64,000 nt of DNA from Acetatifactor sp. (lineage in GTDB: Bacteria > Bacillota > Clostridia > Lachnospirales > Lachnospiraceae), in assembly GCA_022511465.1 (NCBI GenBank), contig JAFLRM010000010.1, positions 1-64,000 on the forward strand, read 5' to 3'. Position numbers and translations under genes: made by a program. The number at the start of each line of letters is the position of its first letter. The stretch's first letter is position 1. The notes beneath the pieces are model-generated. The model did not search any database and was not told the DNA's origin. It worked only from the letters and a program-made list of their open reading frames with translations. Shown piece after piece: positions 10,827 to 31,686 of the stretch.

Positions 10827-11986
10827 TCCTCATAAGACGCAATGCCCTCCTGTAAGCGCTTCAGCCCGTCTTCCAATACGGAGCACGGACAGGCAATGTT
10901 TATCCGCAGAAAGCTTTCCCCACCACTTCCATATTGACCGCCTTCCGAAAGATATAATCCTGTTTTGTTTCGGATATGCTGAGCCACTTCCCTTGCTGAA
11001 CCCAACAAACCTGAGCAGTCCAACCATAACAAATAAGTTGCATGGGAAGGGACAATCCTTATCTGCGGGATATTTTCTTTCACAAATTCGACGGTTCGCT
11101 TTTTATTCTTGAAAATGTACTTCCGGAGTTCATCCAGCCAATCTTCACCTTTTGTAAAGGCTGCAATGGCGGCATCTACTGCGAAAGCGTTCGGTTCCGC
11201 AACCTCGTCGGTATTGAGCGCGCGCCAAACCTTATGCCGCAGGGACGCGTTAGGAATCATCACTGCTGCCGTCTGCAAGCCGGCTAAATTAAACGCTTTT
11301 GTCGGCGCGATACAGGTGATGCTGTTTTCCCTGCATTTTTCCGATACGGACGCAAACGGAACATAGTTCAATCCGGGATCGGTCAAGTCGCAATGAATTT
11401 CATCAGACAGTACAACCACATGATGTTTCCAGCACAGTTCTCCGACCCTTTGCAGCGTTTCCCTACTCCAAATTTCCCCCACAGGATTGTGCGGGTTACA
11501 TAAAATCATGAGAGTGGTCTGCGGGTCGGACAGCTTCTGCTCCAAATCTTCAAAGTCAATTTCATATCGGCCTGCGCTATATTTAAGGCCGTTTTCCAAA
11601 ACTTGCCGCCCATTATTCAAAATAGAATTAAAAAAGATATTATAGACTGGTGTTTGTATAAGCACCTTTTCAGCCGGCGTCGTAAGTTTTCGAACCGTGC
11701 TGGAGATGGCGGGAATTACACCCGTGCAGAAAACCAGCCACTCCTTCTGTATCGAAAAATCGTGTCGTCTCTGCCACCAACCGGTATATGCTTGATACCA
11801 TTCATCCGGAACTACGGAATACCCAAAAACGCCATGAGAGGCGCGTTTCTGAATAACCGCCTGGACTTCCGGTGCCGTCGGGAAATCCATATCGGCCACC
11901 CACATAGGAAGCTCGTTTTCAGCAATATCCCACTTTAACGAATTGGTATCTCTCCGGTTTACCGGTGTATCAAAATCATAATTCAT
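10823..11986 (-). CDS. MalY/PatB-type PLP-dependent C-S lyase / aminotransferase
   Basis: This 387-residue fold-type I PLP enzyme starts at 11986 (MNYDFDTPVNRRD) because GGAG lies just upstream and the family begins this way. Typical MalY/PatB marks are WVADMDF near residue 29, CNPHNPVGEIW, LSDEIHCDL, and the PLP lysine in APTKAFNLAG. Relatives cleave cystathionine, cysteine or other C-S substrates, and some act as aminotransferases. The gene is ten bases downstream of the second DUF3737 gene, in the operon led by a small helical protein. The metabolic role in this operon is unknown. Confidence 0.87.
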   Translation of the reverse strand: MNYDFDTPVNRRDTNSLKWDIAENELPMWVADMDFPTAPEVQAVIQKRASHGVFGYSVVPDEWYQAYTGWWQRRHDFSIQKEWLVFCTGVIPAISSTVRKLTTPAEKVLIQTPVYNIFFNSILNNGRQVLENGLKYSAGRYEIDFEDLEQKLSDPQTTLMILCNPHNPVGEIWSRETLQRVGELCWKHHVVVLSDEIHCDLTDPGLNYVPFASVSEKCRENSITCIAPTKAFNLAGLQTAAVMIPNASLRHKVWRALNTDEVAEPNAFAVDAAIAAFTKGEDWLDELRKYIFKNKKRTVEFVKENIPQIRIVPSHATYLLWLDCSGLLGSAREVAQHIRNKTGLYLSEGGQYGSGGESFLRINIACPCSVLEDGLKRLQEGIASYEE

Positions 11987-28097: not shown

Positions 28098-28165
28098 TCA
28101 CTATTCCATTGAGATATCTATATGAAAATTTTGATTTTATATTTTCCTAAGGTTTGAAGGGGAAA

Positions 28166-28181
28166 TGTTTCATGTGAAACA
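28166..28181. promoter_or_regulatory. parS site 1
   Basis: TGTTTCATGTGAAACA differs from the Bacillus consensus TGTTTCACGTGAAACA at one base. It lies upstream of parA. The 532-base gap 28059-28590 holds this site, the parA promoter, the palindromic element 28265-28494 and nothing else I can identify. Confidence 0.9.
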
Positions 28182-28264
28182 TTTTGAGGGAGGGTTGTGT
28201 AAAAGGGCGGGATTATGCAGAGGGGTAACAGTTGAGCAATGAAACATAAATTAAGTAACGGGAC

Positions 28265-28494
28265 GTAAGCGAGGAGAGGGAGCAGCCTCCATGGCCCTGT
28301 CTTCCGTCCTGCATTTTTCTAACAGTTCGGGGGAGTTTGTCGCTACTTACGGGTCGGTCTTAACGGACATCCTTGTCCGATAAGCCCTAGCTCGGTCATC
28401 CATGACCTCGCTCCCCTGGTTGTCTGGCCGAACTGTAAGAAAAATGGTAGGACTACACAAAGGGCCATGGAGGCTGCTCCCTCTCCTCACTTGC
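28265..28494 (-). repeat. Palindromic structured element 1 (~230 bp)
   Basis: The outer arms 28271-28298 and 28461-28488 are perfectly complementary over 28 bases (GAGGAGAGGGAGCAGCC...). Read on the minus strand, the inside has the same order of parts as elements 2 and 3: CATTTTTCTT, AGGGGA, a short hairpin (28389-28412), TAGG, a 32-base hairpin with loop AGGA (28356-28387), CCGACCCG, and then TTAGAAAAATG. The outer stem sequence is unrelated to those of the other two. No protein is encoded. It may be a structured RNA or a miniature mobile element. Confidence 0.8.
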
Positions 28495-28590
28495 TGGTCA
28501 CTGCAATTTTTTATGTTGGTTCTTTTGCTTTAGATTTAGCTTTTATAACTTCTTATTCAATTAAATAGTCCTAAGGTAAAACCAAGGTTG

Positions 28591-28976
28591 TCATGACAAA
28601 TCCAATGACTTCAACCCAATGGCTTTTAGAATTGCTTTGCTATCAATGCTTTTAATATCTGAATAATTTTTCTCAAATGGTTCCCAATACTTGAATCTAA
28701 ATCCTTCTTCGGGTTCTCCGATGGCATAACCAAGTGCTTCTGACAATCTGTTTTTAAGAGTATCATACCACTCATTCCAAATATTTTCTGGCATTGTACC
28801 CGCTATTTGTATTCCACTTGGCTCAACAGATGCCCATAAATCTATATCATTTCCAATCCAGTGAGGACAATCTTTCTGATTACTCCAGTATGGCATAGAC
28901 CTATATACATTACCTATTTTTTCCATACTTCTTCAGGAGCAGAGTAATGAATGTTTAAATTTATGTCATGTTCCAT
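28591..28976 (-). pseudogene. Unknown small protein, apparent frameshift in an A6 tract
   Basis: A well-spaced AGAGG precedes ATG at 28976, which starts MEHDINLNIHYSAPEEVWKK. The frame then stops at TAG directly after six A residues (28915-28920). One base later in phase the coding continues as IGNVYRSMPYWSNQ through to 28591, ending LKAIGLKSLDLS. Seven A residues would give one protein of about 129 residues. The internal ATG at 28926 has no ribosome site. Options are a sequencing error, a true pseudogene, or slippage-based on/off switching. I do not recognise the family; a Trp/Tyr-rich core (PYWSNQKDCPHWIG) is notable. Confidence 0.6.
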
Positions 28977-29013
28977 AGAAATTTTCCTCTTACTTGAAAT
29001 TATTCTGTGGCAT

Positions 29014-29029
29014 TATTTCACGTGAATCT
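29014..29029. promoter_or_regulatory. Degenerate parS-like site
   Basis: TATTTCACGTGAATCT matches the parS core TTTCACGTGAA but has three mismatches overall. It lies just downstream of the acetyltransferase gene, next to its stop codon. Confidence 0.3.
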
Positions 29030-29031
29030 TA

Positions 29032-29466
29032 TTATAACCATTGAATAAAAGCCGTTTTATCATTTTGGTTATAGCCTGCTTGTTTATAGAAATTTAGAGT
29101 GCTTTCTTTTTTAGATCCGGTCAATAACATCATTTTATAGCAGTTTTCTTTCATGGCAATTTCCTTTGCATAATTTAGGCAGGCTGTTGCTAATCCTTTT
29201 TTCCGGTAGTTTGTATCAGTGATGACATTTTCAATGAAAGCATAAGGTTGCTGATTATGTGTAAGGTTGGGAATAATTACACATACGCAAGAAGAGACAA
29301 TTTTTCCGTCTTCTTCTGCAACAATGATATGATGGTTTTTGTCCCCTAAAATTGTATTCCACAATTTTGTCATGGAATCATCTTTCTCCGGAAATGGGTT
29401 GTCATGGAGCTGCATATATAATTGCATAAGTCCTTCGTAGTCATTATCTGATATTTCCCTGATCAT
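29032..29466 (-). CDS. GNAT-family N-acetyltransferase
   Basis: This 144-residue GNAT protein has the acetyl-CoA loop in YRKKGLATACLNYAKEIA (the R/QxxGxA-like pattern), preceded by AFIENVITDTN. The last part, ENCYKMMLLTGSKKESTLNFYKQAGY, is the usual final strand and helix. The start has GGGAGG upstream. The acceptor cannot be assigned. It stands alone between the frameshifted gene and structured element 2. Confidence 0.85.
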   Translation of the reverse strand: MIREISDNDYEGLMQLYMQLHDNPFPEKDDSMTKLWNTILGDKNHHIIVAEEDGKIVSSCVCVIIPNLTHNQQPYAFIENVITDTNYRKKGLATACLNYAKEIAMKENCYKMMLLTGSKKESTLNFYKQAGYNQNDKTAFIQWL

Positions 29467-29477
29467 AATTTTCCTCC

Positions 29478-29493
29478 CGTTTCATGTGAAACT
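29478..29493. promoter_or_regulatory. parS-like site 2
   Basis: CGTTTCATGTGAAACT keeps the 14-base core GTTTCATGTGAAAC of parS site 1, with both outer bases changed. It lies just before the acetyltransferase gene start. Confidence 0.65.
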
Positions 29494-29531
29494 TTCTTTT
29501 TTAAAAGAATACAAATCTTTCCACAATCAGT

Positions 29532-29760
29532 CTGGCCAGTCCGGGGAGGTGCTTTCCTCACACATTGTGGAGGTTGTCTATTTTTCTTATGTGTCGTCTC
29601 GATATCTAGGGGAAAACGGACACGATGTCCGTTTTAGGCATCTATGGACATGGATGTCCACAGATGCCGACCCGTAACCTTGTATTTTCTCTATACGGCA
29701 CATTAGAAAAATGACAACCGCAACTCTGTGTGAAGAAAGTATCTTCTCGGGCTGGCCCAG
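29532..29760 (+). repeat. Palindromic structured element 2 (~230 bp)
   Basis: Arms 29532-29564 and 29727-29760 are complementary. In a plus-strand RNA the non-Watson-Crick positions are mostly G-U pairs (five) with a single C-A mismatch. Inner parts are ATTTTTCTT/AGAAAAAT, AGGGG, a hairpin CGGACACGATGTCCG with A4/T4 flanks (29613-29635), TAGG, and a 32-base hairpin with loop TGGA (29637-29668), then CCGACCCGTAA. It fills most of the 332-base gap 29467-29798, which otherwise holds parS-like site 2. Confidence 0.8.
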
Positions 29761-29798
29761 CGTCCCATTGTCTATTTGTTCAGCTTATGTTCTTTTTG

Positions 29799-30296
29799 CT
29801 AAATATCCTTCCCTGTCACCTCTCGAAATATCTTATCCATTTCCTCCTTTGAGAGATCACCCAACTCCTCTTCATCATAGTAGGGAACACCATTTTTTAT
29901 CCCCTCCTGTATTTTGCTGGGACCGTCCAGATAGTATCCTACATAATCATAATCAGTAGGAGTTGCCTGCAGGATCAAATCAATTAGCTGATATGCCGCT
30001 TTTCTGCTTTCTTCATTCTGCTGGCCACCGATTGCAGGACCCGAAGGACCATTGTATGCGTATAGGAAAATCTCTTTGCCATCTTCTGTTGTTGTGACAA
30101 CATCGTAAGTATACTGATTCTCATAATCTTTTTCCTCATATAAAGGATCACCAAAAAGAGTTTTTAGCTTTCCATAGATCAACACCTTTTGCTCACTGTA
30201 ATCAAGTGGGAAACCATCAATGATATTGCAGATCTTAGATCCGTTTACCTTACTCTGATCATCTACCACTTTAAATTCATATTTATACTCTGCCAT
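29799..30296 (-). CDS. Uncharacterised acidic protein (165 residues)
   Basis: I do not recognise the family. The protein is soluble and acidic, with a beta-rich N-terminal half (YKYEFKVVDDQSKVNGS, YTYDVVTTTEDGKEIFLYAYNGPSGPAIGG) and a helical C-terminus ending REVTGKDI. AGGAGG precedes the start. The size, charge and isolated position resemble immunity-type proteins, but no toxin gene is near, so this is only a suggestion. It is flanked by structured element 2 and a parS-like site. Confidence 0.6.
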   Translation of the reverse strand: MAEYKYEFKVVDDQSKVNGSKICNIIDGFPLDYSEQKVLIYGKLKTLFGDPLYEEKDYENQYTYDVVTTTEDGKEIFLYAYNGPSGPAIGGQQNEESRKAAYQLIDLILQATPTDYDYVGYYLDGPSKIQEGIKNGVPYYDEEELGDLSKEEMDKIFREVTGKDI

Positions 30297-30405
30297 TTTT
30301 CTTCCTCCTGTTAATGAAATGTTTCCATAGATACCTCCAGAAACATTGTCTCTATATTCGTATATATTATAAAATGTTTATTTTATCAAATCAATAATTG
30401 CATTT

Positions 30406-30421
30406 ACTTTCACGTGAAACT
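30406..30421. promoter_or_regulatory. parS-like site 3
   Basis: ACTTTCACGTGAAACT contains CTTTCACGTGAAAC, one base off the parS core. It lies in the 262-base gap between divergent genes; the rest of the gap is AT-rich with no other clear signal. Confidence 0.55.
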
Positions 30422-30558
30422 TAGCTCAATAAAAAAGGTCCCTTATTTCAAATTTAATTGCAATCTGTCGCATAATTAAATATAATTAAATTAGTAAATC
30501 ACCTATAAATATTGTGGCGGTGGAAATTACTAAAATAATAAGAAAGGAGAGATGAAGT

Positions 30559-31158
30559 ATGTATCACATCATTACAATTGAACGTCCCTATGCCAGCGGA
30601 GGAAATGAAATAGCTAAAAAATTAGCGGAAGCACTAGGCTACAAATTATTTGACAGAAATATTCTTACTGAGGCGGCGAAAAATCTCGATGTACCCCAAA
30701 TTCACATCAACAACCTTGAGGAGACCAGTTCCGGAAGTTTTATTTTCAATCTCTCCAAGACATCAAAGGGCAATGCAAACGAGAACTCTCTTCCTATGGC
30801 AGAAAAGCTTTTCGCAGAAGAAAAGCGCATTATTGAAAAGGCTGCCGACGAGGGTGGATGTGTGATCGTTGGGCGCGCAGCAGGATATATATTAAGGGAC
30901 AGAACAGATTGCCTTCGTGTATTTGTGCATGCGAATAATGAATTTAGAATACAGCGCGCCGTAGAAAGAGAAGGTATCAACCGCGCTGATGCGGAGAACG
31001 CTATAAAAAAGATTGACAAGCGCAGAAAAGGCTTTTACGATTCCGTCACAAAATGGAAATGGGGTGATCCCGAATTCTTTGAAGTATGCCTGGATAGCAG
31101 TAAGCTTGGTATTGAATTGTGCACCAAACTTCTTGCGGAAGCTGTTTTAAAAAGCTAA
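30559..31158 (+). CDS. Cytidylate kinase-like family protein
   Basis: This 199-residue protein has the family's first block (HIITIERPYASGGNEIAKKLAEALG, then LFDRNILTEAA), the central GRAAGYILRD and the lid-like IKKIDKRRKGFYD. True cytidylate kinase phosphorylates CMP. This subfamily (PF13189 type) has a loose P-loop, and its substrate is not established. AGGAG precedes the start, and a good terminator follows. A shorter relative is at 15533..16018. Confidence 0.8.
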   Translation: MYHIITIERPYASGGNEIAKKLAEALGYKLFDRNILTEAAKNLDVPQIHINNLEETSSGSFIFNLSKTSKGNANENSLPMAEKLFAEEKRIIEKAADEGGCVIVGRAAGYILRDRTDCLRVFVHANNEFRIQRAVEREGINRADAENAIKKIDKRRKGFYDSVTKWKWGDPEFFEVCLDSSKLGIELCTKLLAEAVLKS

Positions 31159-31173
31159 ATACCTATACAGCCA

Positions 31174-31206
31174 ATGCCGTCACTATAAAAGGTGGCGGCA
31201 TTTTTA
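31174..31206 (+). terminator. Terminator behind the cytidylate kinase-like gene
   Basis: ATGCCGTCAC pairs with GTGGCGGCAT (one wobble), with an 8-base loop and TTTTTATT after it. It stands in the 566-base gap 31159-31724, which also holds structured element 3 and two perfect parS sites. Confidence 0.85.
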
Positions 31207-31264
31207 TTAGATAAACATAGCTGAGACACTGTAAAAAGTAATACTCCTCAAAAGCTTTCTAAGA

Positions 31265-31495
31265 GCCAGCCGAGACAGTCTGGGTAATACTTTCTCCCGC
31301 ATTGTGGAGGTTGTCCATTTTTCTTTTGTGCCGTCCAGTATCTAGGGGAAAACGGACACGATGTCCGTTTTAGGTTTCTTTGGACAAGGATGTCCATAGA
31401 AACCGACCCGCAACTTTTCGTTTTCTTTCCACGGCACATTAGAAAAATGACAACCGCAACTCTGCGGGAGAAAGTATTACCCAGACTGTCCTGGC
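31265..31495 (+). repeat. Palindromic structured element 3 (~230 bp)
   Basis: Arms 31276-31301 and 31463-31488 match over 26 bases without a mismatch (CAGTCTGGGTAATACTTTCT...). Beyond a small bulge GCCAG/CTGGC extends the stem. The inside follows the same plan as element 2: a 32-nt right-arm stretch (from ACGGCACATT to GCAACTC) and the A4-CGGACACGATGTCCG-T4 hairpin (31349-31371) are identical to it. The 32-base hairpin (31373-31404) has loop AGGA but a changed lower stem with compensating bases. Confidence 0.8.
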
Positions 31496-31614
31496 GTCCT
31501 ATTTGCAAGTTTCTTTGAATATTCATTACCCCAACATATAGTATCTCTCAAAAATGTTTCACGCCCACCCTTTAAAATGTTTCACACATTCCATCACAAT
31601 ATTTTGTGTTTCAA

Positions 31615-31630
31615 TGTTTCACGTGAAACA
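31615..31630. promoter_or_regulatory. parS site 4
   Basis: TGTTTCACGTGAAACA, a perfect match to the Bacillus parS consensus. Confidence 0.93.
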
Positions 31631-31658: not shown

Positions 31659-31686
31659 AAGGAATGTTTCACGTGAAACATTCCTT
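31659..31686. promoter_or_regulatory. parS site 5 within a 28-bp palindrome
   Basis: A perfect parS (31665-31680) is extended by six matched bases on each side (AAGGAA and TTCCTT), giving a 28-base perfect palindrome. It lies 50 bases from site 4 and 39 bases after the response regulator stop. Confidence 0.9.

Follow-up and report, generated by a model that had tools for sequence, protein, structure and literature searches.

The window analysed here is a 64,000-nucleotide stretch of an Acetatifactor sp. genome (Lachnospiraceae; contig JAFLRM010000010.1, positions 1 to 64,000) which carries a block of three palindromic elements and four genes. Two of these genes encode an acetyltransferase (PF00583) and a cytidylate-kinase-like protein (PF13189), and the other two have no Pfam match. 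Each element consists of a core of about 162 nt that contains two hairpins and, outside it, two arms that pair to form a long outer stem. The cores of all three elements match the full model (1-168) of Rfam family RF01731 (TwoAYGGAY) well over the gathering cut-off of 43 bits, and the elements are ordinary members of this catalogued RNA family. They differ from the model in that it ends where their 31-33 bp outer stems start. The features are as follows.

28139..31518, no strand: block made up of the three elements with four genes; missing in G148, the nearest relative found, in which the flanking matches abut
28267..28492, minus: element 1, whole (outer stem and core); 32-bp outer stem, score 31.3 against a shuffle maximum of 10.9
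28267..28298, minus: element 1 outer arm, low-coordinate side
28461..28492, minus: element 1 outer arm, high-coordinate side
28299..28460, minus: element 1 core, RF01731 TwoAYGGAY, 81.9 bits, E 2e-12; GGA in both hairpin loops
29534..29757, plus: element 2, whole, with arms at 29534-29564 and 29727-29757; 31-bp outer stem, score 25.0 against a shuffle maximum of 9.5
29565..29726, plus: element 2 core, RF01731 TwoAYGGAY, 95.4 bits, E 1.8e-15
29613..29635, plus: element 2 hairpin 1, loop ACGAT, without GGA (from sequence and alignment)
29637..29668, plus: element 2 hairpin 2, loop ATGGAT, C-G closing pair (from sequence and alignment)
31269..31495, plus: element 3, whole, with arms at 31269-31301 and 31463-31495; 33-bp outer stem, score 29.8 against a shuffle maximum of 8.7
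31302..31462, plus: element 3 core, RF01731 TwoAYGGAY, 86.8 bits, E 1.6e-13

An earlier note on this stretch described three palindromes with self-complementary outer stems and a constant interior. The palindromes are borne out, as the outer stems score 25.0-31.3 while the maxima from 200 shuffles per element are 8.7-10.9, but by the outer arms found the elements are 224-227 bases long rather than 229-231. Element 1 has arms that show no pairing with the arms of elements 2 and 3 (cross scores 2.6-3.3), which agrees with the statement that its outer stem is unrelated to theirs. The arms of elements 2 and 3 partly cross-pair (scores 11.7 and 13.2), and these two are thus related to each other and not to element 1. 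The interior is common to all three elements, except that element 2 has TATTTTTCTT where CATTTTTCTT had been given. The hairpin loops are ATGGAT and AAGGAT in element 1, ACGAT and ATGGAT in element 2, and ACGAT and AAGGAT in element 3, and hairpin 2 of elements 1 and 3 contains ACAAGGATGT. Common terminal repeats outside a copy's own arms were not found in the window copies and no target duplication was apparent by eye; the arms are inverted but copy-specific.

The note suspected either a new structured RNA or a mobile element of miniature size, which was right in outline, and knew of no described element with this plan, which does not hold because RF01731 matches all three cores, a kind of match that the note itself had named as refuting the claim. 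TwoAYGGAY is listed as 'RNA: y, cis-reg: n, switch: n' in a 2010 table (Weinberg et al. 2010, PMC2864571). It was proposed in 2014 to be a CsrA-binding small RNA (sRNA), in a paper that remarks on an external stem which the Rfam model then current showed as 'not well conserved' (PMC4333381). The family later serves as an example in work on structure prediction or stability (PMC11701678, PMC11661157, PMC7657543). Within the portions surveyed, the literature naming TwoAYGGAY describes no copy-specific outer stems, dispersal or inversion. What is noteworthy is the behaviour of the family, whose copies are dispersed and unoriented, whose mostly copy-specific arms change in concert, and whose cores can invert or, in one case, be replaced.

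Dispersed intergenic copies without a gene orientation preference

A search of related genomes of the kind that the earlier note had proposed does bring up further copies. The window's own genome (G000) has 18 matches to RF01731, 17 of them above the cut-off. The family is present in 16 of the 61 genomes of a genus sample, with 38 matches in G048, the most of any, and 30 in G006, taken to be Lachnospiraceae bacterium GAM79. It is also present in 32 of 138 genomes of a genus set, 15 of which have one match; at most 18 candidates per genome were scored in that survey, and its copy numbers are lower bounds. An order-level set gave matches in 21 of 295 genomes, 17 above the cut-off. The comparisons below draw on 122 of the 154 matches in eight genomes, mostly the better-scoring ones (G000, 18 of 18; G006, 30 of 30; G048, 28 of 38; G010, 12 of 13; G008, 5 of 6; G034, 9 of 12; G060, 11 of 18; G054, 9 of 19).

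All but one of the 122 copies (121) are free of overlap with a called gene. Beside co-directional neighbours the element lies in sense orientation 36 times and in antisense 41 times (p 0.65), and convergent sites number 28 versus 10 divergent ones, with GAM79 alone contributing 16 versus 0. Gene context was taken from codon-scored calls, which still miss some genes (for example beside L007). The family thus has the many related intergenic copies of a miniature inverted-repeat transposable element (MITE), as seen in G000, G048 and GAM79, where several are identical, and lacks the fixed orientation to a regulated gene that would mark a cis-regulatory RNA. A blastn search with element 2 for a phage or plasmid origin gave no match, a weak result because it comes from a single diverged query.

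In GAM79, 24 of the 30 copies lie within repeats of 465-698 bp with 15-nt inverted ends (L046-L074). The ends of this carrier are close to TAAATGGAAAGTTAG and CTAACTTTCCATTTA, and mostly start with TAA and finish with TTA. A strict pattern for the carrier end occurs at 7 places, and any target duplication would be inseparable from the ends. The carrier adjoins other structured sequence, and at L056 and L064 its end may provide the TAA stop of the upstream gene. GAM79 copies with identical cores at different places also have identical arms. Because several copies are identical in both core and arms, the carrier moved recently and brought the arms with it. The possibility that every insertion builds new arms out of its target is not supported in GAM79, given the same identity.

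Core and outer arms: pairing, concerted change and in-place inversion

Covariation is the standard proof of conserved RNA structure. Core pairing was analysed in 109 distinct cores, from which duplicates and cores outside 150-180 nt (L017 and L018) were left out. Pairs in the core hairpins have up to four Watson-Crick types, while the loops and junction letters are conserved and the loops are usually A-Y-GGA-Y with a C-G closing pair. Since the hairpin stems covary around conserved loops, the core looks shaped by selection on a predicted RNA. The earlier note had argued that pairing kept without sequence means that structure is selected and had looked to covariation in further copies as a check; the argument stands for the core and is weaker for the outer stem. 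G-U combinations exceed A-C in the core overall (85 vs 45), the counts being 6 and 0 in G000, 44 and 15 in GAM79, 16 and 2 in G010, 4 and 0 in G048, 4 and 3 in G060, and 1 and 0 in G034. GGA occurs in both loops of 77 cores, in hairpin 2 only of 24 and in hairpin 1 only of 8, and at least one loop has it in all 109. In 72 of these 77 the two GGA motifs are 29 nt apart, and in the other 5 they are 30 nt apart.

Arms were analysed over up to 45 bases each, and an outer stem was called at a score of at least 12. By this measure 120 of the 122 copies have an outer stem, and 119 have one of at least 23 aligned columns. The per-genome median score is 18.9-29.5 for pairing of a copy's own arms versus 4.5-10.8 for pairing across copies, and median identity within a genome is 63-87% for cores, 51-71% for arms and, except in GAM79, 47-51% for unrelated flank. 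One copy in G008 (L213) looks like an almost perfect palindrome over the 60 bases taken on either side. Over the eight genomes the outer stems have 174 G-U versus 112 A-C combinations, with the excess coming from G000 and GAM79.

Orthologous copies in G060 and G054, which are about 90% identical at shared loci, allow both helices of an element to be followed. Of the 19 element loci compared per genome, ten are orthologous and nine in each genome have no counterpart among the 19 of the other. Substitutions were counted in the eight orthologous pairs of the same orientation, with the two flipped pairs left out. Over 417 outer-arm pairs, one side alone changed 55 times (36 transitions, 19 transversions) and both sides changed 13 times. 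Two-sided Watson-Crick changes number 7 versus a shuffle mean of 1.48, with one of 2000 shuffles as high, and 6 of the 7 are double transversions. At L219/L252 two adjacent outer pairs changed jointly, from TT:AA to GG:CC. Over 522 core pairs, one side alone changed 37 times (29 transitions, 8 transversions). Two-sided Watson-Crick changes in the core number 3, each a double transition, and 88 of 2000 shuffles reach this number. Double transversions thus differ between the outer arms (6/7) and the core (0/3; Fisher p 0.033). An alternative count, which takes in the flipped pairs aligned by their cores and hence with their arms misplaced, gives 9 two-sided Watson-Crick changes in the outer arms and 6 in the core.

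Two of the ten orthologous loci, L276/L269 and L281/L230, have cores that point in opposite directions between their arms, within flanks that are 87-94% identical. The cores of L281 and L230 agree at 136 of 163 letters when aligned in core orientation and at 103 in flank orientation. The possible third inversion, L206/L270, was not counted as its alignment is uninformative, and the orientation test omitted L273, L274 and L283, which gave no hit to the core pattern.

Two copies that are not shared (L231 and L226) were searched for in the other genome. The flanks of L231 of G054 are present in G060 at 85.6% and 87.5%, with 176 bases between them versus 248, and there the outermost arms, still like those of L231, enclose a different palindrome. 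The L231 site of G060 argues that, at least once, cores were exchanged or inserted within a palindrome. The replacement (L301, G060 C94, about 10994-11171) has no Rfam match, and a 40-nt portion is found again, at 95% identity, beside L272 in G054. It possibly belongs to a second dispersed family of structured repeats. For L226 of G060 only one flank was found in G054. Elsewhere, relatives have only one side of L016 in common, L219, which had been chosen as a likely unshared copy, proved to be shared, and L220/L272 differ by other sequence adjoining the element.

Proposed template switching and the alternatives

The reading that we favour, with moderate confidence, is that these elements are dispersed intergenic palindromic repeats in which an RNA-like, selected core sits inside an inverted repeat that is at least partly kept complementary by a DNA process. 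The core layer is an RNA-like two-hairpin fold whose loops are kept while its stems drift and covary, and the outer layer is an inverted repeat that mostly has a different sequence in every copy. In a DNA hairpin one arm could template the other, so that a change in one arm is copied across, and occasionally the stretch that the arms enclose would be put back the other way round. In yeast, template switching between inverted repeats yields homogenised arms and inverted spacers (PMC8604942), and it has been put forward as a process that both creates RNA stems and maintains them (PMC8794818). We infer that this process, and not homologous recombination, is the cause of arm change and inversion. 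Because the arms show the marks of template switching, namely double transversions and spacer inversion, pairing of the outer stem alone is no proof that its structure is selected. On this reading the core RNA would be made and bound by a protein, and it was possibly selected for binding one such as CsrA.

Several points weigh against this reading. The two-sided changes are few, the distal arms of L282/L275 align poorly, and one-sided transversions are likewise commoner in the arms (19/55) than in the core (8/37). In GAM79 the arms change slowly, as identical cores have identical arms. Some copies share arms, with cross-copy scores that reach 26.1 in G000 and 29.1 in G048, and L015 (score 1.0) and L229 (score 4.9) do not reach the threshold for an outer stem. 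Homologous recombination between the arms would invert the core too, and the different palindrome at the L231 site is not explained by template switching. A clean single-element empty site was not found among the loci examined. The RNA role of the core is argued from covariation, and core G-U does not exceed A-C in G008 (7 vs 21) or G054 (3 vs 4). In the outer stem G-U and A-C are about even in the six genomes other than G000 and GAM79 (90 vs 83); a core flip with fixed arms turns G-U into A-C as read on the new core strand, which could explain such evenness.

TwoAYGGAY allows two helices of one element to be compared, the two-sided changes being transitions in the core and mostly double transversions in the arms, in a small sample. 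The family makes the imitation of compensatory selection by template switching (PMC8794818) testable in many bacterial copies. An Rfam 'Cis-reg' family of unknown function is also recast as a dispersed repeat, which changes the experiments to be done. A bolder extension, speculative and in our view doubtful, is that mobile, flip-prone TwoAYGGAY elements spread hairpins that bind a CsrA-type protein among gut Lachnospiraceae. A long helix, continually rewritten and perfected by the cell through copying from arm to arm, would shield the core of each copy, cores of different families would be exchangeable between the same arms, and copy number and orientation would tune the regulator on an evolutionary time scale.

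Of the alternatives, the one that fares best is the proposal already in print since 2014 (PMC4333381), that TwoAYGGAY is a stand-alone sRNA family which would bind or titrate CsrA through the GGA hairpin loops; we give it a small but real chance. The loop and closing pair resemble the CsrA consensus RUACARGGAUGU, obtained by systematic evolution of ligands by exponential enrichment (SELEX), in which GGA lies mostly in a hairpin loop (PMC7652899); elements 1 and 3 have ACAAGGATGT in hairpin 2. The GGA present in both loops of most cores at a near-constant spacing is also in keeping with the proposal, but it is missing from hairpin 1 of elements 2 and 3, as it is in 24 of 109 cores, and from hairpin 2 in 8 of 109. 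The csrA gene (PF02599) is present in 50 of 61 genomes, including the window's own and 14 of the 16 carriers, the two carriers without it being genomes 59% and 73% complete. It is almost as frequent in non-carriers (36 of 45), however, and the co-occurrence, which fits the CsrA idea, is not discriminating. Since matches between copies in G000 stop within about 45 bases of the core, no shared upstream promoter is visible in that genome, and the proposal leaves in-place inversion unexplained. CsrB/CsrC-type RNAs likewise have GGA in hairpin loops (PMC4333381, PMC7652899). TwoAYGGAY differs from them in having one or two sites, a fixed fold, many genomic copies and no promoter that could be seen, and it occurs here in Clostridia while CsrB/CsrC are found in Gammaproteobacteria.

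It is improbable that the outer arms are older palindromes into which the TwoAYGGAY core was inserted, or for whose middle it was swapped, which would make arms specific to the locus. The L231 site in G060, where aligned flanks (86-88%) and outermost arms enclose a different palindrome, is what would be expected, but it is one locus only. In GAM79 the arms travel with the core, and insertion alone would leave the concerted change of the arms unexplained.

A plain MITE or REP-like element without an RNA role, whose folding would serve transposition as single-stranded or cruciform DNA, is quite improbable. Its patchy, often multi-copy, intergenic and unoriented occurrence, the inverted-end units that hold 24 of 30 GAM79 copies, and the roughly half of G060 and G054 copies without a counterpart among the loci compared (9/19 each) all suit such an element. 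Mobility of DNA alone, however, need not require that core loops be kept while stems covary, and ten copies stand at orthologous places in two species that are about 90% identical. ERIC, Correia and RUP elements are likewise short, MITE-like intergenic palindromes with many copies, and the resemblance of TwoAYGGAY to them is one of plan. They differ in that the window copies lack common terminal repeats beyond their own arms. Correia-containing transcripts are cut by RNase III (PMC10969869). Least probable by far is a cis-regulatory RNA of neighbouring genes, since the Rfam type label (Cis-reg) stands against the even split of orientations, the 'n' for cis-reg in the discoverers' table (PMC2864571) and the finding by tblastx at E 1e-15 of no flanking gene common to seven of the single-copy genomes.

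The block at the window locus and variant copies

The nearest relative found, G148, is 81% and 77% identical to the window on the two sides of the block. The block lies next to parA; among the matches listed, the closest named ParA relative is from Lachnospiraceae bacterium GAM79, and the window lies in a Lachnospiraceae-like genome. Because the G148 sequence that matches the window as far as 28138 directly adjoins the one that matches it from 31519 onwards, the block as a whole is absent from G148. The search for empty sites suggested in the earlier note thus gave a relative without the whole of 28139-31518 and no clean site for a single element. The block is also absent from some other relatives (L088, L092 and L094), in which parA- and parS-matching sequences are about 78-180 bases apart, and G040 has its own single element in the gap between parA and the parS sites. 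Three parS-like sites (28166-28181, 31615-31630 and 31665-31680) lie beside parA/parB and flank the three elements on both sides. They match TGTTTCACGTGAAACA, which we take to be the parS consensus, with 0-1 mismatches, and 0.02 such sites were expected.

Some copies depart from the usual plan. In G000, L017 (C32:6547-6732) has a further palindrome, about 24 bases long, nested in hairpin 2, with a core of 186 nt versus about 162 nt, and L018 (C32:15453-15565) is without hairpin 2 and still has a 35-column outer stem (score 28.7) which resembles that of L012, about 7 kb away. Head-to-head pairs, minus then plus, occur in G034 (C26 and C4) and G048 (C128 and C152; together L076-L079), their starts about 340-415 bases apart. 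In the pair that was aligned, that of G034 C26, the two elements resemble each other in their inner cores and differ in their outer arms. A single copy in G048 corresponds to two head-to-head copies in G034.

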